A DNA stretch of 12,509 nucleotides from Irineochytrium annulatum (lineage: Eukaryota > Chytridiomycota > Chytridiomycetes > Chytridiales > Chytridiaceae). The position numbers were made by a program, and so were the translations under genes. The stretch lies in assembly GCA_027600665.1 (NCBI GenBank), contig JADGJL010000880.1, forward strand, positions 1 to 12,509, written 5' to 3'. The notes below the pieces were generated by a model. The model saw only the letters and a program-made list of their open reading frames with translations, was not told the origin of the DNA and did no database searches. This document shows, piece after piece, positions 1-12,509 of this stretch (position 1 is its first letter; every line of letters begins with the position of its first letter).

Positions 1-3000
1 GTTCCCTCTCCTGCATCAAGCTCTCGACGCTCATAGCAGCTTCACTGCTACCCGTCCCTCCACCCGAGTTCGACCCCATCTGCGTCGCCGCCTGTTCAAT
101 CATTATCTTCCTCAGCGACATCCCCGCGCTGCTGAGCGACCTCTTAATGCCTGACCCCGACGCAGCTGGAGTGGCTTGACCGGCCACGCTTGATAGCGGC
201 AACGGCCCGGGAAGCGGCGGCACCGGGGAGGGCGTCGCAACAACGTTCCCAGCCGAAGTTGACATCGACAGCATCTCACCGGCGCCCCCATGTGTCTGCT
301 GCGGGAACGCCATGGAGAGCGCGTGGGCTCCGCCCGCCGTGAGAGTGGCGGTGTGGTTATGAACGGTGGCCGTGGGCTGGTGCTCGAGAATCATAGCGGC
401 CCATTTCATGCGGTTCTTCAAAATGCCTTTCTGGATGCGGCTGCAGCGGTCGTTGTTTTGGTTGAAGATGGTCCAGGCGTCATAGAGCGGGGAGACGAGA
501 AAATCGATGAATCCGACCTAGAGGGAAGTATCAAGTGGTTAGACTCGAAAAATGACGAGTCCAACGATGAGTAATTTACCTGACACTTTGGCACATTCGG
601 GTTATGCCTGTCCATGAACTGGCTCACGCTAAACCCAAGCTCCCGCTCCATATCGCCTTGCCTATAAAACTCCTCCATAACGCTCTCGCACCACCGATCC
701 GAGATCTCCGCCATCTTGCTCGGGTTATTTAAATCCGCGCACTTGAGCGCAATCTCTACGATGGCAATTCTGGATTCCTGATGCTCGAGCCGCCCAAAAC
801 CGACGGTGCTCATCTTCGTCTTAAATTTCGTCACGTACTCAAAGTGCTTGCCCATGTCGGTGCAGAGGATTAGGCGGATAACAAGCCGGCGAATGTCGTC
901 GTACTCGTCGTTAGTCATGCCGGAGAAAATGTTGAAGGGACTGTTGAGGGACATCTGGAAAAAGTGGGCGCTGTGGTGGAGTTCGTTGACGGAGATATCG
1001 GAGTACATGACCGCGATCGGGTGGTGAGATTTCACCATGAATTGGTTGTTGTAGCCCTGTATCGACATGTGTATTAATGCATGTGCGGGTTTAAGTACCT
1101 ATTGTGAAATAACTTACCGGATGATCCAAATCATGTCCAATAGCTGCAATGATGGCCGCAAACTTCTCCGCAGCGCTCATCCGATTACTTAGATCGAACG
1201 CCGTGTTTAACAACAGAAAGTTAAACGCATGCAATACATCCGCCGCATGGATTGCATTATGATACGGATGCGACCTATACTCGCTCTCCATCATCAATAG
1301 CCAACCCAAAAACTTATCCCGATCCACCATGAAGCTCGGGAACAGCTCGTTCTGCTCCAGCATCCACAATCCCGCGAAATACAGCGGGTGCCCGCCCGTC
1401 TTCTCGCAGAGGTCGAACATGTCAATATTCCAGGACGGGAACCAAAGGTCCAGGTAGTTGAGAATAGACCAGCCGTCGATCTGCTCGAGGTACGTCGGGG
1501 ATGAGAGGCAAGCGACGGCCGCAGCCGTGCGGCTTTGGCTGGTGCCTTCCTTGCGATCCTGCTCAGCTTTAGCCTCGGCGGATGCCAGCGCATCGGGTAT
1601 CCGCGCGGTGAAAGGTGGAAGAGGTGGAGGAGGCGGCGTATCCGCTACAGCGCTAGACTGCCGTCTGCCGACATTATGTGTCCGCAACTGCCGCAAGCCC
1701 GCTGCCATAATGCCCGTTGACGGAGCAATCCCCGCAGCGGACGTATGGCTAACCGCCGACGACGCGGGCGAAGCCGGCAGCGGGGGCAACGACGGCAGGC
1801 CAAGCGTCGGCTGATCCGCCTGCATGGCGCCGCTCGTATAGCTGCTCCTCCTCCTCCTACTTGCTACACTATGCGGCGTGACTAGCGGGCTCCCCTTCTC
1901 GTTTCGCTCCGGCTCGTTTCTCTCGACGCGATATACCCTCGTCCTCGTCAGCTGCAAGCTCGGGTCGCTCGCATTCCTTGCCCTCCCTGTGCTGCCGACG
2001 CTGTTCCTGTTCGCGGCGCGCACGGACGCGGCCGCGATGCTCGGCGCCATGGATCCCCGGTGGGCCTGGAAGGCGTTGGAGTTGTGGTGGAGGTGCGTGT
2101 TGGTATGGGTGTGGTGGGTGTGGGTGGTCGTGTGCGGGTGCGGGTGAGAGGCAGTGTAGGTGGTGTGGGTGAGCGTCGGGGTCGCCTGGGCTGCGAGGAC
2201 GGTGTTGAGGACCCACGACTTGACCTCCTCGTCCATCGGGGTGTTGTTGGCGTTGGTGACGTCGGTTAGGGAGGGAACGTAGGCGTCGCCGCCGGAGAGT
2301 AGCGCCTCGAGGATGCGCTCAATTTCGGCTGGGGACAGGCGTTTAGAGCGATGGGATTGTTGGAGGTCGCGGAGGAGCGCTAGGGCTCGCGAGCCGGGGC
2401 CTTCGATGTTGACTTTCGGCGCACCCCGCTGATAATAATCGACCTCAGTAAAAGCCGGCTTTTAAATAAAGGCTTACGCGAGCGGAATTCTCAATTTCCT
2501 CCTTCATCTTGCTGACTTGCAGTCTGACCCGCCGGTCGAAGTACCAGACGAGCACGATGCCAACGCATATGATGATCACGATGGCGAGGATGCCAAGACA
2601 AACATACAACACAATCTTGCTCTGGGGCGGTGGAGGTCCTTGAACTAAGCAAACGTCAATGGAATTCGTATTGGCATAAGAAGTAGGACTAACGTTGCGC
2701 AATTCCCGACTCCGTTATGAAAATATCGAATTCAAGGTCGTCGGCCGCAAAGTGGGCCTCTACGGAATCCGATTGGCTTGCGTTTGCTATGGTGGAAAGC
2801 AAGATAGAAGTCGTCGCATTCGCCATCATCACCACAAACGTCCTAAGGAGACCTGGTAAGTGCCATGTCCTAACGCAAGGTCCTCTTACATCTGCCGGAT
2901 AGCCGTGTTATCCTGAAAGTGGACCGGCCCAGTTACCGTATCCATGGCCGGGAACGAGAAACTCGCCGGAACCGCAATATGTTGCATTGCAGTCCCTTTC

Positions 3001-4414
3001 ACGCCACTAGCAAGCTGGGCGACCGTGACGTCAGAGTTGACTGCATTTTGCTTCAAGAGCTAAGATGAACGTTAAGCAACGTTCCTTGTCAGCGATACAA
3101 ATAACGGCACTCGTACCTGATCGTATCCAGCGACTAAAAGGTCGAAGCAAGTCTGGTAATAGTAATAATCCCGCGGCGGAGACGGCAGCGCTGCGACATC
3201 GGGATATCTGAAAGGTGGGTAGAATAAATCAGCCGGCCACACAAAAAATCGAAAATCCGCGCACTTCTCTCTCCACGGCAGTCCAACCCAATCCCTCTCA
3301 AATATTCCCGCCTCCATCCCCTCATTCGCCCTCCCAACAACAACCACAACCTCCTCCGCCTTCACGAGCCCCATCCTCGCCCCTCCACCCCCGGCCATAT
3401 CCTCCCCGGCCTGCCCACCGACGACCCACGTCACGTTCGAGTTGCCGTACGCCCTCGCGGCGTCGTGGCACCACTTGAACGTCCGCGCGTCCCCGTAGAA
3501 TAGCATAAGCGGCTGGGGCCCGGATTCGTAGGGCGGCATCATGGAGAAGAGGGAGTCGATCGAGACTAGGCAGGGGTTCGGCGTTTGCAGGGTCGCGGGG
3601 ACGTGGAGGGGGCCCGTTAGGGTTACGTTGTAAATGACGGAGAGCGTCTCGATGAGGTCGTGCACTACAAGGAGTGTTACGACATGCGTTAGTAAATATT
3701 AGCAAGGTGTGAACTTACATTGATACTGCGCCGGTACAAGAAGCGACGCGGAGTGTTGCCCCAGGGATACAACGTATTCGAACATCGCGGCAAGGGAGTC
3801 TGCAACGCTGGCCTTAATCATCATATAGGTCGAGAAGTCTGGATAGTTGCGATCCTCTGTTGATGACAATCGATTTTAAGTCCCCACGAAAGCGGAAACG
3901 AAAGGCAACGAAAAGCACACAACGAACCTCCCAAGTCGCAAACCGGTAGCCCATAGCTCTCCGCAACCGTGAGTCCAACTTGACCCCACATCGACGAGTC
4001 CGCCACGACCCCAATGACGCCCCCGCTTTCCACTCCCACCATCAAGTCTTTCACGATCCCCGTCTTGTTGCTGACGGGGTCCACGACGCCCACGACGATC
4101 TCGACCCCGACCCCGCTCAAGACGCCATGCGCTCTCCACCGCTCAATCGAGAGCGTCATCATCCACACGAGCGGGGACCAGTACGTGTCCAGCTCTGGTA
4201 CGGGCAGGTAGAACCTCAGCGTCGGGACAGCAGCTGCTGGCGCCGACATGTCGGATGTCCGGACGGAGTGAGGTGGGAGAGGCGGGGGGATCGATTGAAT
4301 GGCTTGACGCGGGTGTAAGGGTCGAGGAGGGGCGGGTGATGCCGCGGTCGGGTTCAAGGCAAGGGAGAGCGCCATGAGGAGGATCCGCGGCGCGTCGGGG
4401 TGCTGTCGTAACAT
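1..4414 (-). CDS. Receptor-type cyclic-nucleotide phosphodiesterase: signal peptide, ANF-receptor-like ectodomain, TM helix, PDE catalytic domain (3' end cut by window)
   Basis: Predicted membrane receptor whose cytosolic part hydrolyses cAMP and/or cGMP. Exons on the minus strand: 4414-3928, 3856-3719, 3664-3117, 3059-2890, 2842-2694, 2644-2478, 2428-1118, 1056-580, 517-1. All eight introns are GT-AG, 47-71 nt, and reading phase is kept across each, giving at least 1321 residues without a stop. Order (numbered from this start): signal peptide 1-26; ectodomain about 64-448; TM 508-533; helical linker; low-complexity His/Thr/Ser/Pro region; PDE domain about 865-1193; Ser/Gly-rich tail running off the window. 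Five N-glycosylation sequons (NKT, NVT twice, NAT, NAS) all lie before the TM. PDE residues seen are YHNAIH (H943, H947), HDLDHPG (H985, D986), CADLNNP (D1098) and the CQVGFID glutamine (Q1149). Domain calls rest on family motifs; the joining of ectodomain and PDE into one protein is inferred from splice phase. Ligand and nucleotide preference cannot be read from sequence. The start at 4414 is uncertain (see 4415-5308). Confidence 0.85.
386..1495 (-). other. Class I 3',5'-cyclic nucleotide phosphodiesterase catalytic domain
   Basis: Residues about 865-1193 carry the full class I PDE signature. WNIDMFDLCEKT opens the domain, then YHNAIHAADV gives the proton-donor His and first metal His, and GHDLDHPGYNNQF gives the metal-binding His-Asp. 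SVNELHH and ALKCADLNNP (metal Asp) follow, then MEEFYRQGDMERE, and CQVGFIDFLVSPLYDAW with the purine-binding Gln and clamp Phe. All catalytic and metal residues are present, so it should be active. The motifs lie nearest to the animal PDE1/4/7 pattern rather than the yeast high-affinity PDE2, but cAMP versus cGMP preference cannot be assigned. Introns interrupt it at 1057-1117, inside HDLDHP-G, and 518-579, just after the invariant Gln. Confidence 0.93.
1841..1858 (-). other. PKA-like phosphorylation motif RRRRSS in the receptor-PDE linker
   Basis: Residues 744-749 read RRRRSS, a strong match to the basophilic kinase (PKA/PKG) consensus R-R-X-S. A second one, RRQSS, lies at residues 808-812 (1652-1666). 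Both sit in the low-complexity cytosolic linker between the membrane and the PDE domain, where phosphorylation controls several animal PDEs. Feedback by cAMP- or cGMP-dependent kinase is an inference from the motif only; short motifs occur by chance. Confidence 0.35.
2538..2615 (-). other. Single transmembrane helix of the receptor phosphodiesterase
   Basis: Residues 508-533 are an uninterrupted hydrophobic stretch (IVLYVCLGILAIVIIICVGI and onward to VWYF) preceded by a Pro/Gln/Ser/Lys stalk and followed by the basic stop-transfer sequence DRRVRLQVSKMK. The charge pattern places the C-terminal side in the cytosol, a type I membrane protein. The helix lies in exon 6 (2644-2478), which joins in frame to the PDE exon through a 49-nt intron (2429-2477), with AG at 2429-2430 and a TTTACTGAG-like branch site. 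Confidence 0.85.
2890..4225 (-). other. Extracellular ANF-receptor-like (periplasmic-binding type I) domain, spread over exons 1-4
   Basis: Residues about 64-448 follow the pattern of ligand-binding domains in natriuretic-peptide receptors, GABA-B/glutamate receptors and bacterial LivJ-like binding proteins. A first beta strand is followed by a helix holding ERWRAHGVLSGVGVEIVV and the conserved Asp-Pro-X-Ser-Asn (DPVSN, about 112-116). Next come a Gly/Val strand (GVIGVVADSS), a LPVCDLGED strand, an FSTYMMIKASVAD segment (the usual YPTFFR..PSD position) and AMFEYVV. Near the end, FPAMDTVTGPVHFQDNTAIR resembles the family's 'F.G.TG.V.FD..GDR'. Five cysteines could form disulfides. Similarity is at the level of pattern and length; a profile search is needed to name the subfamily. 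A Gly/Val-rich stretch in the middle may be a lineage-specific loop. Confidence 0.7.
4337..4414 (-). other. Signal peptide of the receptor phosphodiesterase
   Basis: The first 26 residues from the ATG at 4414 have a short polar/basic start, the hydrophobic core ILLMALSLAL (residues 11-20) and a small-residue TAAS stretch fitting a cleavage site near residue 26. A Pro-rich stretch follows. This is the classical pattern of a cleavable secretory signal and agrees with the ectodomain that follows. The ATG context is weak (C at -3), so the true initiation codon may lie upstream. Confidence 0.65.
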
Positions 4415-5308
4415 TGGTTTCGCCGTCGCTCGAACGGGAGGTTCCGTTGTGGTTGGCTTCGTTGCATCGGCCGCCCTCTTGGCCTTCGTCACTTCCTTCG
4501 GCTGCTCGCTCGTCATCGACTTCGCGTCGCTTACAGTCCGCGGTCTCCTCAAGTCCCTCCGCCTTTGCAAGGCTTCGCCGGCCTTGATTGCCGTCCACCT
4601 TCTACAAGCCCGCATGGTCCAGTGCGTCACGTATCCCACGATGACGCACAGCTGACCCAACGCGTTCCCTGCAGCCCGACGGCTTTTGATATATGCCCTC
4701 ATTTGCTTGTCGACGTCGCTGGCGACGGGCGTGACGCGGGTCACGCGTCGCGGCCTCCGGCGCGCGTACCGCAACATTTCGACGGGGACCGCGCCCTGCT
4801 GCTCCTCGTCCCAACCGCCCAGTAGCCTCCACTTCACTGGCCTCCCATCGCGATCGTCCACGACTTGGTCAACCGGGGGGAAGTCCATGATCTCATCTCC
4901 ACCCCACTTTCGCCGACGGGCCGCGGGACCGGGGTCTGGCGGCCTCGTCACCACCGGCGGTTGCGGCGGTTCCGGCGGGAGCGGATCCAACGCCAGCGTC
5001 AAGGGCGCCGTCTCTGCAACTTTGACACAGCGAGCTGGCCTCTTCGCTGGGCCTCCCCAAAGGGAGGCGTACACCGATCCAGAGAACCCAGCGACGGGCC
5101 CGAAGGCCCCGCCAGTCCCCGTCGTCGGCGATGTCGTCCGGGATACGATCGCATCGGCCCCGCTCTTCCCGGACTTCGTCGTCGAGACCATCGTCGCTCT
5201 CCTCTCCGTCGGAACCCGCTCCAGCTTCATCGCCCGATCTTCCGTATCCTTCTCTGCGCTCTTTCCGTCAGAGATCGATCTATCGTCGGTCGCGCCCCGC
5301 GGGACCAT
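4415..5308 (-). other. Open in-frame extension upstream of the receptor signal peptide (298 codons, status unresolved)
   Basis: The receptor's first-exon frame stays open upstream of the signal-peptide ATG to an ATG at 5308, which has a good context (AACATGG) compared with the weak one at 4414. The stretch would encode 298 polar, Arg/Pro/Thr-rich residues, with no recognised domain and no clear membrane segment. Its codons have the GC-rich third positions of the neighbouring genes, but high GC alone keeps frames open. It could be a real N-terminal extension, in which case the signal peptide would become an internal anchor; a long 5'UTR; or part of another transcript. A possible donor (GTAAGC, first base 4531) lies within it. 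Confidence 0.3.
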
Positions 5309-5954
5309 GTTCCTGCTTCCCAAACCCCGCGTGATAAATGCAGGGTTTACAGCCGGCTGACAATGTCTCTCCCGCTGTCGTCTTGTTCTCAACAAGAGCC
5401 CTCAAACTGAGCGAGACGGCGGCCGATGGGTGGGGGCGGGCTGGGGTGCGGCCTCTCCACTTCGCGGCTCTTCTTCTCTCGTAAGGATGTTCGGATTTTC
5501 ACGGGATCGACCTGCGCCCAGAGCGAGTATGAAAGACCGCGGCGCCTCAGAGCCTGTCCTTGAATTGGCCCGTGTTGGTAGATTTACTCGCTTTTAACTG
5601 GTGGAGGGGGGGCGCTACGCTTTAGGGATTGGGACCAGAAGTCGGCCGAAGCAAGTCCTCCTCGACCGGCTCGCGTTGACGATTTTATGGGTGAGGAGCG
5701 ACGATCGAAAGGGATGCGAGGGCAGAAGTGGTCATTCGGGGTTTGCAGCTTTTTTCAATAAAGAAGATAATCATTGTGATGTTCACTACTGCGTCTCGGA
5801 CGAGACTGCAAACACCTCCAGGGCATTCACACAGTAAACTTAGACACTGTCCTGACCCAGTCGTGACCCACACGCACCACGACGTGCAGGCAGAATAGAT
5901 GAATGTGGAAGTGCAAGTCAAACTTTTCAAGTCGCATCTGCTACGGAACCACTC
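5309..5954. promoter_or_regulatory. Divergent intergenic region between the receptor PDE and the GST-zeta gene
   Basis: This spacer must hold the promoters of both divergent genes if the receptor transcript begins upstream of 5308. I see no convincing TATA box, tRNA or additional gene; the short open frames in it lack coding character. AT content rises towards 5740-5800, with an AATAAAGAAG stretch at 5758-5767. The last 56 bases contain the small upstream ORF listed separately. Confidence 0.4.
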
Positions 5955-5958
5955 ATGA
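5899..5958 (+). promoter_or_regulatory. Upstream ORF whose stop overlaps the GST-zeta start (ATGA)
   Basis: An ATG at 5899 opens a 19-codon frame ending in TGA at 5956-5958, overlapping the GST-zeta ATG (5955-5957) in the sequence ATGA. If the transcript starts upstream of 5899, scanning ribosomes meet this ORF first, and the main protein would need leaky scanning or termination-coupled reinitiation. If transcription starts between 5901 and 5955 the uORF is irrelevant. The transcription start is unknown. Confidence 0.3.
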
Positions 5959-6993
5959 CCTCCACCTCCACGCCCGACGTGACCCTCCATGGCTACTGGC
6001 GATCCAGCGCCTCATGGCGCGTCCGCCTGGCCCTGAATCTCAAGGTATGGAACTCACCCTCGTCTTGGGTTCCGAGGGAGCGCGCGAACTGAAGATCGAG
6101 CTTTTCTTAATACGATACCGCAGGGCATCCCGTTCAAGACCGTGCCAGTGGACCTTCTCAATCGCGAACAGGTTTTATCTTGTTTTTGTTTGCACGCTCG
6201 CGCATTAACAATGACGATTTCTATTTGCAGCTAACGGAGAACTTCATGAAGCTGAACCCGAACGCGTCCGTGCCGCTCCTCAAGTACGGGGAGCACACGA
6301 TCACGCAGGTGGGGGTCGTTTTCTGTCGTTGCCGCCCGCGAAAGTGATCAAATTACATTTTGTGATAACAGTCCGTCGCCATCCTGGAGTTTCTCGAAGA
6401 AGTGCACCCGAACAACGCCTTGTTGCCTTCGGACCACTATAAGCGGGCGCAGGTTTTCTCAGTCTTGCTTTGCGTTTTCGTTGTTTTGAATTTACGACGT
6501 CTGATTCCAAATCCCAGGTGCGCGCTATCGTGAACCTGATCTGTTGCGACATCCACCCGATCCAGAATCCCCGCGTGATTGGGAAGGTTGGCCCCGAGGC
6601 CGGAAAGGACTGGGCGAGGTTCTGGATCGCGAGAGGTTTCGATGGTATGATGTTCGTGTTCATTCTTTAGAGCCATGTCTGAATCGCGGTAATACCCAGC
6701 ACTTGAGAAGGAACTGGCGGCGACGGCAGGCAAGTACTGCGTCGGGGACGAGATCACGATGGCGGACCTCTGCCTCGTGCCTCAGGTCTACAACGGCCAC
6801 CGGTGAGTTTGCCGGCTCCATCCTCGTTGCTTGGCGTTGATCACGCTCGGTCCCGCTCTCCTGACTTTTTTGTAGATTTAACGTGGACTTTGCGTCATAC
6901 CCCAATATCAACCGGATCGTCGAGGCGCTTGAGGGACACGAGGCTTTCAAGAAGTCGCACCCAACCGCTCAGCCCGATGCTCCGCCATCGTGA
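5955..6993 (+). CDS. GSTZ1: Maleylacetoacetate isomerase / zeta-class glutathione S-transferase, seven exons, 214 aa
   Basis: Glutathione-dependent cis-trans isomerase converting maleylacetoacetate to fumarylacetoacetate in tyrosine/phenylalanine breakdown; cytosolic in most fungi. Exons: 5955-6044, 6124-6171, 6231-6308, 6372-6452, 6518-6644, 6700-6802, 6876-6993 (stop TGA). All introns are GT-AG and 55-79 nt, and phase is maintained throughout. The N-terminal thioredoxin-like domain holds the zeta motif [12 protein letters not shown] (residues 16-27). It also has [12 protein letters not shown] with the cis-Pro and the glutathione-binding [14 protein letters not shown]. The helical domain has the [18 protein letters not shown]-capping box. 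Length matches the usual 210-220. The cysteine of the common SSCSWR motif is Ala here, as in many bacterial members; the catalytic Ser is kept. The start is the first in-frame ATG before the [10 protein letters not shown] strand. Confidence 0.95.
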
Positions 6994-7148
6994 TGTATGC
7001 AACAGCCTTGAACAGAGTCTGGCGCATGACAGGAGGCTGTGGATCTCAATTACTTCCAATTTGTTATTTAGCATACCGTTGCCGTTTTACACCGGGTAAC
7101 TGACGCCCAAGCTTGACCTCCATTATTTTCATGTCGTTGTTACCATGC

Positions 7149-7154
7149 AATAAA
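7149..7154 (+). terminator. GSTZ1: Canonical polyadenylation signal of the GST-zeta gene
   Basis: AATAAA lies 156 bases past the GST-zeta stop codon in AT-rich DNA, within TGCAATAAAATTGC. It is the first perfect AATAAA downstream on this strand and suits the cleavage signal of this transcript. A second AATAAA at 7630-7635 is too far to be the main site. Confidence 0.55.
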
Positions 7155-7770
7155 ATTGCTTCAGCGAACACGATGATATTGTATCAGAGAAGCATAAGAT
7201 ATTCCTTCATAATTCTTTGTGTCCGGGCCACATCAATACGGCGACGAGAGTGTTAGGTTCTGTAGCTTTCCTTCACGACTGATACGAAAATAGAGTTTTT
7301 AAAAGGGAGAACAAGGTAAAAATGTGAGGGAGAGGAACACAAAAGGTGGTTTGAGAGCTTCGGCGGGTAAGACTTTCACCGTAAGATCAAATAGTAGGAG
7401 GTTTTCCCATAAAAAATATTCGCTCCCTCGTTTGATCAAAGTGTAAAGGAGAGTAACAACGGGAAGAAGGATCCGGCCCGCCAGGGCAGACACCTTAAGT
7501 AACACACACCGACTAACCCACATACAAGTACTGCGAGAAGGCATTCATGGGATAAGAAGCGAACAAAATGGAATGTGGAAGAATAGAAGGCAGGTCAAAG
7601 AGAGTGAACGGGAGAGAGGCTAGATGATCAATAAATCCAATCACAAATAGAGAACCTGATAGAAATAGCAAAAAAGAGAATGGGAGAAAAAAAATGATAG
7701 CAGGACAAGAGGTGTTTAAGTCGAACGGAAAGAAAAAAAAGAGGAAACAGTAAGCGGTCTCCAGCAAACT

Positions 7771-7895: not shown

Positions 7896-10188
7896 CTAGT
7901 TGTTCACACTATCGGCGTCCTTCGACCCACACCATCCAAACATCCTCTTCCACCACTTCTTCTTCCCCTTCGTCTTCTTCTTCCCTTGCGCCCCTGGCCT
8001 CGCTGCCCCTGCAGCGGGAACGGCCCCACTGCCCGTTCTCTCCGCCGCTTGCACCGCGTCCGCCCCGCCCGCGTTATTCGCAGCCGCGACGCTGGACCCC
8101 TGCGCCGGCATCGCCGAGCTTGCCAGCGGGTGCGGGCTTGGGCTGACGGTGGTGGAACCCCTGAGCGGGGTGGAGTCCTTCCCGTTGGAGTTGGACTGGA
8201 CCATCGATGGCCCGCGGAGTGCCTGGACGGACGTGCCGTCGTTCCGGTCACGTGTAGACAGGGGCAGCGCGCCGGAGGGGCTTGAAGGGAATCCGCCCGA
8301 GGCGTTGTTGCCCGCGGGGCTAGAGGCGTGGGGAATCGGGGAGGGTGCGGAGGGGTTGGCGGAGGCGCCATTCGGGCCGAGGTTGCCGTTGATGTTGGCG
8401 GCCGATTGGTTAAGCGCGGCGGCCTCCTTCATGGCCCGGCGCTCGGCGCGGTCGCGCTCACGCTGCTCGCGCTCGAGCTCGCGCAGGCGCTCCTTCTCCT
8501 TGCGCTGAGCGTCCATGACGAGCATCCAGTCGAAGACTCCATCGTCCGTCTCGCCATTTCGTTGCAAGACTGCAAACAAATTTAATTTTAATTCATCGTA
8601 AAACTCCAAGAAACTGCCACAACTCACCCTTGTTAAACAGCTGCCTGAGCTTGTTGTAATCGGGCTCTTCATCGAACTTCAGCCCCCGCGAGTACGCCAG
8701 ATACTCCGCAAACTCCTCCGGGAATCCATCGCACAGCTCCTTAATGGGGACGGCCTGCTTCTTCTCCCCAATCTTCTCATACTTTTGCTTGTTCGTCGCG
8801 GCCTTCAAGCCCTGCCACGGCAGCGAGCCGCGGAGGAAGTACATGAAGACGTGGCCGAGGGACTCGAGATCGTCCCGCCGGGACTGCTCGCGGCCGAGGT
8901 GAGTGTTGATGGACATGTACCGGGCCGTTCCGGAAAGGGACTTCTTCTCCCGGTAAGGAATGTGCGCCTTTGTTTTCGGATCCCGGTACTGCTTGGCCAT
9001 CCCGAAGTCGACCATGTAGATTTGAGATGCCGGGTGCGGGTGTTGAGGTGAGTGGTTAGCGACGATACTGTAGGGGTCTGTTTGCGATAACCTTCATTAG
9101 CGCTGTCCGCGAGAAACCAATCCTGTCAAGATGGGACTTTTTTTTAAATACTTACTGCCTCCGGCGATCACAACATTCGGCGGCATAGGCTCATTGTGCC
9201 GAGGAAGACGACCAATCAGGAAGTTGTCGGGTTTAATGTCGCGGTAGATAAGGTTCTTCTCGTGGATTTGTTGAACACGGGTGATCTTGCAACAAAAGTC
9301 AACGCAAAATCCCAAAAAAAAGAAAGAGTAATTCACTACACACCATCTGCTTCGCCGCCATGCAGACCGTCTTGGTCGAAAACTTCCGGTTGCATAAATC
9401 AAACATATCTTCCAAACTCGGCCCCAGCAAGTCGATGCAAAGGATGTTGTGAAGACCCTCCTGCCCGTAGTAGTAAACGGACGGGATGCCGACGCTGTTT
9501 GCAAGGATCTTGTACGTCCTGTACTCGTCCCTGAGCTGCGGAGCGTCCGACTTCCGAGGCTCGAATTTGATGGCCACGGGCTGGTTGTTAACCATGTTCA
9601 CGCCCTCGTAAATAATCCCGAACGAGCCCTCCCCGATCTTCTTCCCGACTTTGAAGTTCACCCCGACGACATTGGGGCTTGAGCTGGAGTGGAGCTTTGA
9701 GGAGGAGGCGGAGGTCGTTGCGCCGGTGGCGGCGGCGCCGGAAGTAGCGTTGGCGAGTTGTTGGGAGGAGGAGACGCCGGCCGGGTTGGCCGCAGAGGAC
9801 GAGCCGTGGACGCCAGTGACGTGGGAGGAGTGGTGGTGGTGGTGGTGACGGGTGGAGGATTGGGGCTGAACCAGCTGGTCCTTCGAGTTATCGGCGGGAT
9901 CCCGCTTCGATTCCTGAAAGCAAATCCACGTTAGATTAAAAAGGGTCTTGCAAGCGCTAAGGTCGTTAAATTCCACCGTCCCGACATAAAAGCGCCCTAC
10001 GCTTTCCGTTCCCACACAACCAACGCAGTCGCCACTTCTCTGGCACGGCAACACACCTTAACAGCGCCGGGCTGCGCGGACTGCGAAATCGCGGGTGTGG
10101 GGTCACTCGGCATCCTCGCTGACTGCTGCTTCGACGCCTCCGCTGAAGTTTGCTGCTGTGCCGGCTCCCCGTTCTTTGTTCTCGACAT
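7896..10188 (-). CDS. Casein kinase 1, fungal YCK/cki1-like, five exons, 651 aa
   Basis: Ser/Thr kinase of the plasma-membrane casein kinase 1 group (yeast Yck1/2, fission-yeast Cki1), which acts in polarity, endocytosis and nutrient signalling. Exons on the minus strand: 10188-10057, 9913-9344, 9285-9156, 9077-8628, 8569-7896 (stop TAG). Introns are 143, 58, 78 and 58 nt, and phase is consistent. A Ser/Ala/His-rich N-terminus of about 125 residues, with six consecutive His, precedes the kinase domain. The domain has the GEGSFG loop (138-143), AIKFE Lys160, YRDIKPDN with catalytic Asp250, DFG Asp301 and the CK1-specific [20 protein letters not shown] in place of APE. The YCK-type ending [11 protein letters not shown] follows, then a charged helix ([20 protein letters not shown]), a Ser/Pro/Ala/Gly-rich stretch and a basic C-terminus. 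Odd points are the enlarged segment before DFG and the lack of a C-terminal Cys-Cys. The chosen ATG is the last before the donor; the same frame is open to 10521 but that part looks non-coding. Confidence 0.93.
7899..7982 (-). other. Polybasic Trp/Cys C-terminal tail of the casein kinase 1
   Basis: The last 28 residues begin with [19 protein letters not shown] and end in DADSVNN. Yeast Yck1/2 end in a palmitoylated Cys-Cys, and Yck3 in a Cys-rich run. Here a Lys cluster, aromatic residues and one Cys could attach the kinase to acidic membranes electrostatically, perhaps with a single S-acyl group. That is inference from composition. Confidence 0.5.
9010..9210 (-). other. Expanded segment between catalytic loop and DFG of the casein kinase 1
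   Basis: Residues 260-300 (split by the intron 9078-9155) put 41 residues between NFLIG and DFG, where YCK-family members usually have about 13. The extra part is Pro/His/Asn-rich (e.g. [17 protein letters not shown], then [12 protein letters not shown]). No in-frame AG that would remove it lies closer to the DFG exon; the one at 9069-9070 breaks the frame. It should form a surface loop at the beta7-beta8 turn. Confidence 0.7.
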
Positions 10189-10947: not shown

Positions 10948-12509
10948 TTATCGACCTTCCGGTCCCCCTCCACCCGCCATCAGTTTCCGCGACTTGCCAA
11001 GGAACGCCGCCCGCGCCCTACCCAACCTAAGCCCCGCGCACCGTTGGATGCTGGCGCTCACGAGCCTCGCCGCCTCCTGCCTCTGCTGCGCGTGCGACAT
11101 GCGCTTTACGTGCGAGAGCGCCGCGTCGCGCGTCAGGTCGATCACGGACGCCATCTGCGCCTTGACGCCCGTCCTTCACAAAGGGTCAGCCTGTGTAAAC
11201 GAAGAGAGTAGAACAAACATGTTGAATATCCGCAAATCATCCTCAGCCCGGAGGAGATGCCCAGCCACGAGCTCCGACAGCTCGCCCGTGTCGGCTGTGA
11301 TGAACGACGACGGCCCGCCGGCGGACGGGTCGTCGCCCAGCGTGGGCACGAGTTGCTCGAGAATCTGTGTCTCTCGCGGGAGGTGGGAGCGGACGTCGAG
11401 CTCGGTGACGGAAAGGTGGGAGCAAAGGTCCTGGATGAGGTCGCCGAGGCGGGACGTATCATCGCACCGGATGGTCATCTGGCGCGAGGAGAAAACAAGT
11501 GTTAGACCTTCCGCGTACAGTCTCCCCCTCACAAGCTCCTAATTCGAAAACACACCTCCCGATTCGCAACCTCACACCATACCGGCAACGAATCCGCAAC
11601 GCACACCCACACCGCCTCCAGGCCATTCCCCGCGTACTCCACACACCCCCACGACAAAAACGCCCCACCTATCCACCTCTGCACAGCCGCCGCGCCGGCA
11701 TCTACCCTGAACGTGACGCTCGACGCCGGCCGCGTTGCGCCCAGCCGCGCGGGCTCGAGGGACACGTATCGCGCGAAACGCGGCACGGGGAGGGAGAGGC
11801 GGTGTGTTTGCATGAGAGGGTTGGTGGTGGTAGTGGGGACAGGGTTGGAGCTGGCGCAGGTGATGAGGAGGTCGAGGGTTGCAGAGGCGTCCCGCGCGAT
11901 GGGGACTCGGACGGAAACGGTGGGAGAGGGTTTTGGTTGGCTAGAAAGTTTTTTAGAAGAGTCATTAGTCTTTCTCTTCATCAAAGATGCCTTGGACGTC
12001 TTCCGAATGCTCACAACGCGACGGAATCCTTGTCCAGGATGCCTTCTCCCCTGATAATGATGAGGTGCACATTCGCGTCCGCAGGAGCCTCCACGCGGAG
12101 GTACAGCCCGCCCCGACTCCCGTCCGCATCAAGCCGGGGCACAAGCTCGCAGCGGACCGTTTTCGGCTCGGGGGCGACGGCTTCCTGAGAACTCGTTGCG
12201 ACCTCTGGCACTGGTGCGACCTCTGCCTTCTTCGGCGCCAGAGCGGCTTCTTCAAGTTTCTGAGTACAGGTTAACGTGTCATATAGAATACAAGACTTAA
12301 AGCACACACCTGCTTCCGCCTAAATAGCTCCCTAAGCAACGTCTCCTGCCCCGCGTCATCGACCGCACTGCTGGTTAGCGCCACCTCTGTTGGCAAAAAT
12401 CCCCTCACTGCAATCTGTCAGCTCATTAACTCCCTCCTCCCTTCGATCAACTCACCTTCCCCATCCGCGCCCACAACAATCAGATCCCCATTGCCCCCCG
12501 TCCTACTCC
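10948..12509 (-). CDS. BBS2: BBS2, BBSome subunit, C-terminal ~421 residues (5' part outside window)
   Basis: Subunit of the BBSome, the coat complex that carries membrane proteins along the cilium/flagellum with intraflagellar transport. Exons on the minus strand: 12509-12456 (partial), 12407-12310, 12259-12015, 11940-11556, 11478-11219, 11173-10948 (stop TAA). Introns are GT-AG, 45-77 nt, and phase holds throughout. The first part, DLIVVGADGEVRGFLP, matches the end of the BBS2 beta-propeller (VDGEIRGYLP in the human protein). The coiled segment ETLLRELFRRKQKLEE follows, then an adaptin-ear-like region (LYLRVEAPADANVHLIIIRG). Next are LSLPVPRFARYVSL, VQRWIGGAFL, the TSRLGDLIQDLCSHL helix and a C-terminal helical end, DLTRDAALSHVKRM to CAGLRLG. 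These align in order with the last three fifths of BBS2 (about 720 residues in animals). A Pro/Glu/Ala-rich insert (about 26 residues) sits between coiled coil and ear domain. Confidence 0.9.

Follow-up and report, generated by a model that had tools for sequence, protein, structure and literature searches.

A predicted receptor phosphodiesterase with a flytrap-type ectodomain in Irineochytrium annulatum

Introduction

Does Irineochytrium annulatum, a chytrid within Chytridiales, encode a one-protein receptor that responds to an outside ligand by altering the breakdown of cyclic AMP (cAMP) or cyclic GMP (cGMP)? The question is raised by a stretch of 12,509 nucleotides (hereafter, the window), which is contig JADGJL010000880.1 (C955 in our numbering) of a 26.9 Mb genome in 1082 contigs (GCA_027600665.1). 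An earlier note, made from the letters of the window alone, had proposed that a gene at its left end fuses an extracellular ligand-binding domain, through one membrane helix, to a class I cyclic-nucleotide phosphodiesterase (PDE). We find that this gene (4414-2, minus strand) is spliced from several exons into a single predicted protein, and that the same order of ectodomain, helix, and PDE is annotated as single proteins in relatives. We consider it established, for the predicted proteins, that the exons join in phase, that the domains follow this order, that the catalytic residues are intact, and that the order recurs in relatives. The protein is probably a single-pass receptor PDE: a flytrap, likely of the class C kind, followed by a helix, a linker, and a class I PDE, and it likely alters the hydrolysis of cAMP (or cGMP) upon binding a ligand outside the cell.

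Gene structure

The nine exons of the earlier note are separated by GT-AG introns and join in unbroken phase to give an open frame of 1321 amino acids. The two introns that it named, 2429-2477 and 2645-2693, are both exactly in place. Its exon count, however, should be ten, as its third exon conceals an in-frame intron of 57 nucleotides (3264-3208). When the window protein is aligned with its relatives, it has an extra segment directly before a conserved YP motif, and this segment is encoded by 3264-3208. The putative intron starts with GTGCGC and ends with TTTCAG, with CTGAT 20 nucleotides ahead of its end; its length is a multiple of three and it contains no stop when read through. (A branch-like motif is a weak mark only, since 6 of the 9 introns have one.) The GC content of this intron is 0.47, compared with 0.36-0.51 for the remaining eight introns and 0.50-0.64 for the exons. 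Once 3264-3208 is taken out, a profile built from 20 relatives covers the ectodomain as a single domain (residues 29-449, 208.2 bits); if it is left in, the match falls into two pieces (198.5 bits summed). Also, in a structural model of a fragment of the protein, 15 of the 19 residues encoded by 3264-3208 have a predicted local distance difference test (pLDDT) score below 50, as does the end of that fragment. Because 3264-3208 looks like an intron and because its removal unifies the ectodomain match, we prefer a model with ten exons and 1302 amino acids.

We compared each of the nine original exons with 11 relatives and with 100 shuffles per exon (for the last exon, residues 1150-1195 only). 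Six of the nine scored well above every shuffle. Exon 1 (3928-4414; all exons are on the minus strand) encodes a likely signal peptide and the first part of the ectodomain, and its score was 133, against a shuffled maximum of 61. (The signal peptide, at about residues 1-25, was judged by eye and lies under our Kyte-Doolittle cut of 1.6.) Exon 2 (3719-3856) was borderline by its own homology (45 against a shuffled maximum of 48) and is assigned to the ectodomain by the splice model and the profile match. Corrected exons 3 (3265-3664) and 4 (3117-3207) belong to the ectodomain by the profile alignment, and exon 5 (2890-3059), which encodes a conserved TVTGxVxF region, does so by both the profile and exon-wise homology. 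Exon 6 (2694-2842) is the weakly supported end of the ectodomain; it is in phase, and the profile alignment runs through it collinearly as far as residue 449. Exon 7 (2478-2644) encodes the membrane-spanning segment and the start of the linker. Exon 8 (1118-2428), on the evidence of the splice model and exon-wise homology, encodes the linker, a low-complexity stretch, and the start of the PDE domain. Exon 9 (580-1056) encodes the core of that domain, with 112 of 159 residues identical to P0115, and exon 10 (2-517) encodes its end and a C-terminal tail.

The reading frame has no stop up to the end of the contig, so the gene runs past the contig edge and the C-terminus is missing. At the other end, the start at 4414 is our choice. 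Upstream of it, nearly 1 kb (4415-5401, minus strand) stays open in the same frame as exon 1, and the start codon could lie farther upstream.

The phosphodiesterase domain

The PDE catalytic domain (PF00233, PDEase_I; 458-1264, minus strand) matches Pfam with E = 5.6e-76 and 255.8 bits, against a gathering cut-off of 24.8. The earlier note was right that this domain is intact: the His/Asp metal ligands, the general-acid His, and the invariant Gln are all present. (The roles of these residues are those in PDE4D.) Pfam reported no domain other than PDEase_I in the window protein, which is complete but for its C-terminal tail.

By sequence, the solved structures nearest to the catalytic domain are of PDE4, followed by PDE3, PDE7, PDE8, and PDE1 (best 60 of 151 matches). 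By fold, a model of the Spizellomyces relative has PDE3A, PDE7A, and PDE4D tied as nearest. The Asn of the NPxK motif, which helps to recognise adenine in PDE4, occurs in 28 of 28 aligned rows. As PDE4 is nearest in sequence and this Asn is kept, we lean towards cAMP as the substrate, with cGMP possible. Signaling by cGMP is described for Blastocladiella zoospores (PMC4046227).

The UCR, REC, and PAS regions are features of the PDE4, PDE7, and PDE8 families. The window protein resembles these families in its catalytic domain, with a receptor ectodomain in place of those regions. We rejected the possibility that it is a PDE8, as the N-terminal domains PF08629 and PF23198 are found in PDE8A (P0041) and are missing from the window protein.

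The ectodomain

We assign residues 29-449 of the corrected model (2782-4330, minus strand) to the type I periplasmic-binding, or Venus-flytrap, fold because they match the family profile and because relatives in this family carry PF01094 (ANF_receptor; best E 1.3e-32, in Sorochytrium). The profile was built without the window protein and matches it even in uncorrected form at 198.5 bits. With the database size set nominally to one million sequences, none of 200 shuffled sequences, nor the reversed sequence, was reported at E ≤ 100. So the type I binding fold that the earlier note had read from the exons is recovered by the family profile, through relatives that bear PF01094, and not by Pfam on the window protein itself, a miss that under the note's own refuting condition might have told against the fold. 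Its label "ANF-type" holds as a Pfam name for the relatives only, and the ectodomain looks nearer to the flytraps of class C G-protein-coupled receptors (GPCRs) than to those of receptor cyclases. In particular, when the Sorochytrium ectodomain was compared with solved structures, the best matches were to the taste receptor T1R3 (1e-12) and to metabotropic glutamate receptors, and the best 60 of 180 matches were all to class C receptors. The ligand could be an amino acid, as it is for glutamate and taste receptors, an idea that we considered by eye on the Sorochytrium alignment.

The Irineochytrium genome itself contains possible sources for the sensor. ANF exons are found on 12 contigs, and 8 of these also have matches to 7tm_3, the seven-helix domain of class C GPCRs. 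Among 418 frames from the 12 loci, the family ectodomain profile scores up to 91 bits, and its best four matches are on contigs that bear 7tm_3. Given these loci and the Sorochytrium matches, we consider the sensor most likely to be part of the chytrid pool of class C flytraps. None of the 12 contigs had a match to Guanylate_cyc, in an exon-wise search of short contigs that was blind to the window's own ectodomain; the genome may still have a receptor-cyclase partner.

On contig C274 of this genome (L061 about 4900-7560, minus strand), an ANF_receptor exon is followed by a cysteine-rich stretch (Ephrin_rec_like, with NCD3G under the cut-off) and hydrophobic segments. This locus may encode a receptor similar to class C that escapes the 7tm_3 model.

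The membrane helix and linker

The earlier note claimed one membrane helix, and only one segment of the window protein, IVLYVCLGILAIVIIICVGIVLVWY, is above the Kyte-Doolittle cut. The best 19-residue window within this predicted helix (2547-2603, minus strand) scores 3.44, and basic residues follow on the side toward the PDE.

Between the helix and the PDE is a conserved linker (residues 533-622; 2165-2483, minus strand, spanning intron 2477-2429), whose consensus is roughly GPxxKAxxILxxLK...EIDFLIEVLTSG..F.PNLD...DEETRAWVL. We built a linker profile from 20 relatives, with the window protein excluded, and ran it on 16 proteins and 100 shuffles. The window protein matches at 76.6 bits. The profile also matches two more PDE genes of the Irineochytrium genome: on contig C189 (57.7 bits), the linker sits behind a GAF domain (E 1.3e-9), and on contig C22 (45.8 bits), it sits behind a hydrophobic region that looks multi-helical and is accompanied by PDEase_I (2e-73). 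Next in the ranking are P0005, P0126, P0125, PDE8A (P0041; 17.6 bits, E 0.0014), and P0127; at E ≤ 10, the profile reported none of the remaining eight proteins, which include one PDE4B, and no shuffle. The linker may be a shared transmitter module. In position, it is comparable to the helical linker of rhodopsin phosphodiesterase (Rh-PDE; PMC7644710).

Both of the other linker-bearing genes deserve a brief description. The C22 gene (L060 757-3114, minus strand) possibly encodes a polytopic sensor PDE, and P0125, its kin by both linker and tree, has five hydrophobic segments. The C189 gene (L059 1384-5391, minus strand) is large and its PDE core is split by introns; long open frames upstream of it have no Pfam match.

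Relatives with the same fusion

To collect relatives, we ran three protein searches, which gave 130 proteins in total. The queries were the window protein, the Geranomyces ectodomain, and a portion of the Borealophlyctis protein comprising its juxtamembrane and PDE regions. The PDE side was used as a query because the search from the Geranomyces ectodomain yielded no more than four proteins, each of them from Geranomyces or Thoreauomyces. (The Borealophlyctis search was cut at E 1e-60, which may hide remoter members such as other Blastocladiomycota.) We aligned and scanned 31 of the 130, comprising chytrid-like proteins and some outliers; P0001 was included, while metazoan and other hits and P0005 were left out. 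At E ≤ 0.001, all 31 have PDEase_I and 19 have ANF_receptor. Of the 130 predicted proteins, 19 have PF01094 and PF00233 together. The 12 without ANF_receptor are P0001, P0004, P0006, P0104 (E 0.0078), P0108, P0111, P0114, P0118, P0120, P0125, P0126, and P0127. Some of these seem to be cut at the N-terminus and others (for example, P0125-P0127) have different N-termini.

The fusion is present in 12 named genera (Spizellomyces, Rhizophlyctis, Geranomyces, Borealophlyctis, Nowakowskiella, Dinochytrium, Phlyctochytrium, Blyttiomyces, Zopfochytrium, Chytriomyces, Physocladia, and Sorochytrium) and in Chytridiales sp. JEL 0842. Sorochytrium is a blastocladiomycete; the other eleven genera are zoosporic Chytridiomycota. 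A hydrophobic helix lies between ANF_receptor and PDEase_I in 18 of the 19 proteins, the exception being P0116. The architecture that the earlier note suggested searching for in other zoosporic fungi is there, and the window gene is a member of a dispersed gene family rather than a lone curiosity. Of the 19 proteins, 12 have automatic names taken from PDE4, PDE7, or PDE8, which conceals the receptor part.

A tree of PDE domains has 39 rows (43 were picked, and the short P0120, P0123, P0051, and P0046 were dropped). The 20 rows that we labelled as receptor PDEs, including the window protein and P0104, all lie to the same side of one branch, whose support is modest (74/88, and 76% of 200 bootstrap trees). 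This count leaves aside nine unlabelled rows, several of which are inside the receptor-PDE group, and many inner forks are unresolved. A single origin of receptor PDEs is possible and not proven. The closest rows to the window protein are P0113, P0112, and P0115. The Sorochytrium protein, P0124, is on a long branch and its placement is unsure; an origin before the split of Chytridiomycota and Blastocladiomycota would depend on this copy alone.

Comparison with known systems

Natriuretic peptide receptors, which are receptor guanylyl cyclases, have a type I binding-protein ectodomain, one helix, and an intracellular cyclic-nucleotide enzyme. The window protein is predicted to be built in the same way, with a flytrap outside and a cyclic-nucleotide enzyme inside, but its enzyme would break down the nucleotide rather than produce it, and the closest solved ectodomains to that of its Sorochytrium relative (again, the best 60 of 180) are from class C GPCRs. 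We rejected the possibility that the gene encodes a receptor guanylyl cyclase, as Pfam finds PDEase_I only and neither a cyclase nor a kinase-homology domain.

Two other systems share part of this design. First, the Rh-PDE of choanoflagellates combines a membrane sensor, a helical linker, and a class I PDE (PMC7644710). In Rh-PDE, a rhodopsin with many helices senses light, while the window protein has one helix and a flytrap; neither Pfam nor hydrophobicity indicates a microbial rhodopsin at its N-terminus. Second, class C GPCRs with ANF_receptor have been reported from fungi (PMC3251606). The window protein likely has the same kind of flytrap as those of zoosporic fungi, with a fused enzyme as the output instead: Pfam finds no 7tm_3 in it, and there is the one hydrophobic segment only.

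An extracellular-type sensor of a different family, CHASE, is joined to PDEase_I in P0046, from the alga Pleodorina starrii, which is seen here as a predicted protein only. P0126, from a eukaryotic transcript, is a single protein with DEP, RhoGEF, PH, and PDEase_I domains.

The earlier note knew of no characterised PDE with an ANF-type receptor domain. We found none either: a word search of open-access PubMed Central turned up no account of a receptor PDE, or of PDE receptors in chytrids, that we recognised.

Proposed function

If the window protein is a receptor PDE, then it would be placed in the plasma membrane with its sensor facing outside. Dimers are the working form of class C receptors and of class I PDEs, and by analogy the receptor PDE may be dimeric as well. 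(Rh-PDE also works as a dimer; PMC7644710.) Closure of the flytrap on its ligand would alter how far apart the two membrane helices stand or how they are turned, and the linker would transmit this shift so as to open or close the PDE active sites. Ligand binding most likely raises PDE activity, although stimulation is the sign that we chose and is fixed by no result here. The outcome would be a local fall of cAMP (or cGMP) in the zoospore or germling, without a G protein. The earlier note suggested, likewise by inference, that such a switch may serve chemotaxis or encystment.

Several observations weigh against this proposal. The gene model is predicted from genomic sequence alone, and the membrane exon (2644-2478) is borderline by its own homology (51 against a shuffled maximum of 52). 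Exon 2842-2694 is not supported by its own homology at all (35 against a shuffled mean of 37). NCBI's model of the gene, P0001 (761 amino acids, 100% identical across 55% of the query), begins past the membrane helix and leaves out the receptor half. PF01094 does not match the window protein in Pfam, either uncorrected (at E up to 1) or corrected (at E up to 10). A model of the exon-3 fragment has a mean pLDDT of 63.8 and no Foldseek match at E ≤ 0.001; NMDA-receptor flytraps are among its weak matches (best E 0.12), amid unrelated folds. The Spizellomyces ectodomain has a weak match among solved structures to the N-terminal domain of an NMDA (N-methyl-D-aspartate) receptor (3e-4) and not to class C GPCRs. 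(A fold search with the full Spizellomyces model had PDE chains only among the matches listed, which is uninformative on the ectodomain.) Finally, no member of the family is, to our knowledge, characterised as to its activity, ligand, localisation, or direction of control.

We considered three alternatives. First, the ligand might inhibit the PDE and so raise cAMP or cGMP. This is compatible with the protein's identity as a receptor PDE, and the sequence leaves the sign unfixed. Also, the sensor of the Salpingoeca rhodopsin-PDE shifts activity only about two-fold and its activity in the dark is high (PMC7644710). We consider inhibition rather unlikely, although no observation here speaks directly against it.

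Second, the fusion might be real and the ectodomain might not be a switch: it could bring a constitutively active PDE to the membrane or cluster it there, for instance through adhesion or through association with class C GPCRs. The ectodomain is far more diverged than the PDE (44 of 138 residues of exon 1 are identical to the best relative, as compared to 112 of 159 for the PDE-core exon) and has no Pfam match in Irineochytrium, both of which speak for this alternative. PDEs that lack the ectodomain, such as P0005 (without a membrane helix) and P0111 (with a helix only), have unresolved positions within the tree group. However, a linker that is conserved across the family joins the helix to the PDE, as signal transfer would need, and flytrap folds usually bind ligands. 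So, we think that a non-signaling ectodomain is unlikely.

Third, that an ectodomain-membrane protein and a soluble PDE were wrongly merged from two genes is very improbable, and we reject it: although the NCBI model begins at a Met right after the membrane helix, exons 6, 7, and 8 are only 49 nucleotides apart, with GT-AG ends and an unbroken frame, and the same fusion is annotated as a single protein in 19 relatives.

Other genes in the window

Three other regions of the window contain possible genes. At 11176-12128 (minus strand), the BBS2 platform domain has two weak hits that stay under the cut-off (E 4e-4 and 8e-3); a gene for the ciliary BBSome would suit a fungus that bears a flagellum. 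At 8593-10057 (minus strand), a protein kinase extends across several exons (Pkinase pieces, E about 2e-5, under the cut-off); by eye it is casein-kinase-1-like, with a possible tail to 7896. At 5903-6840 (plus strand), frames look by eye like a glutathione S-transferase or maleylacetoacetate isomerase, and the pieces tested had no Pfam match.

Implications

The fusion of a membrane sensor to a PDE is already known from Rh-PDE; what is new is the type of sensor and its spread in chytrids. A broader picture, which we hold tentatively and with somewhat less than even confidence, is that zoosporic fungi have ancient one-protein chemoreceptors that mirror receptor guanylyl cyclases. In these receptors, a class C-type flytrap would gate the breakdown of cyclic nucleotides without a G protein; they would predate the parting of Chytridiomycota and Blastocladiomycota; and the linker would be a plug-in transmitter that, in the same genome, also stands behind multi-helix and GAF sensors.

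If our proposal is correct, then an outside cue would turn off a second messenger in a single step, opposite in effect to a receptor cyclase, and would do so in fungi that have kept the ability to swim. Class C-type flytraps would then be seen to work in fungi without a G protein. The receptor PDEs could also provide a chemically gated sink for cAMP or cGMP, as a tool beside the light-gated PDEs, and they would be a concrete, testable candidate receptor for chemosensing by chytrids.
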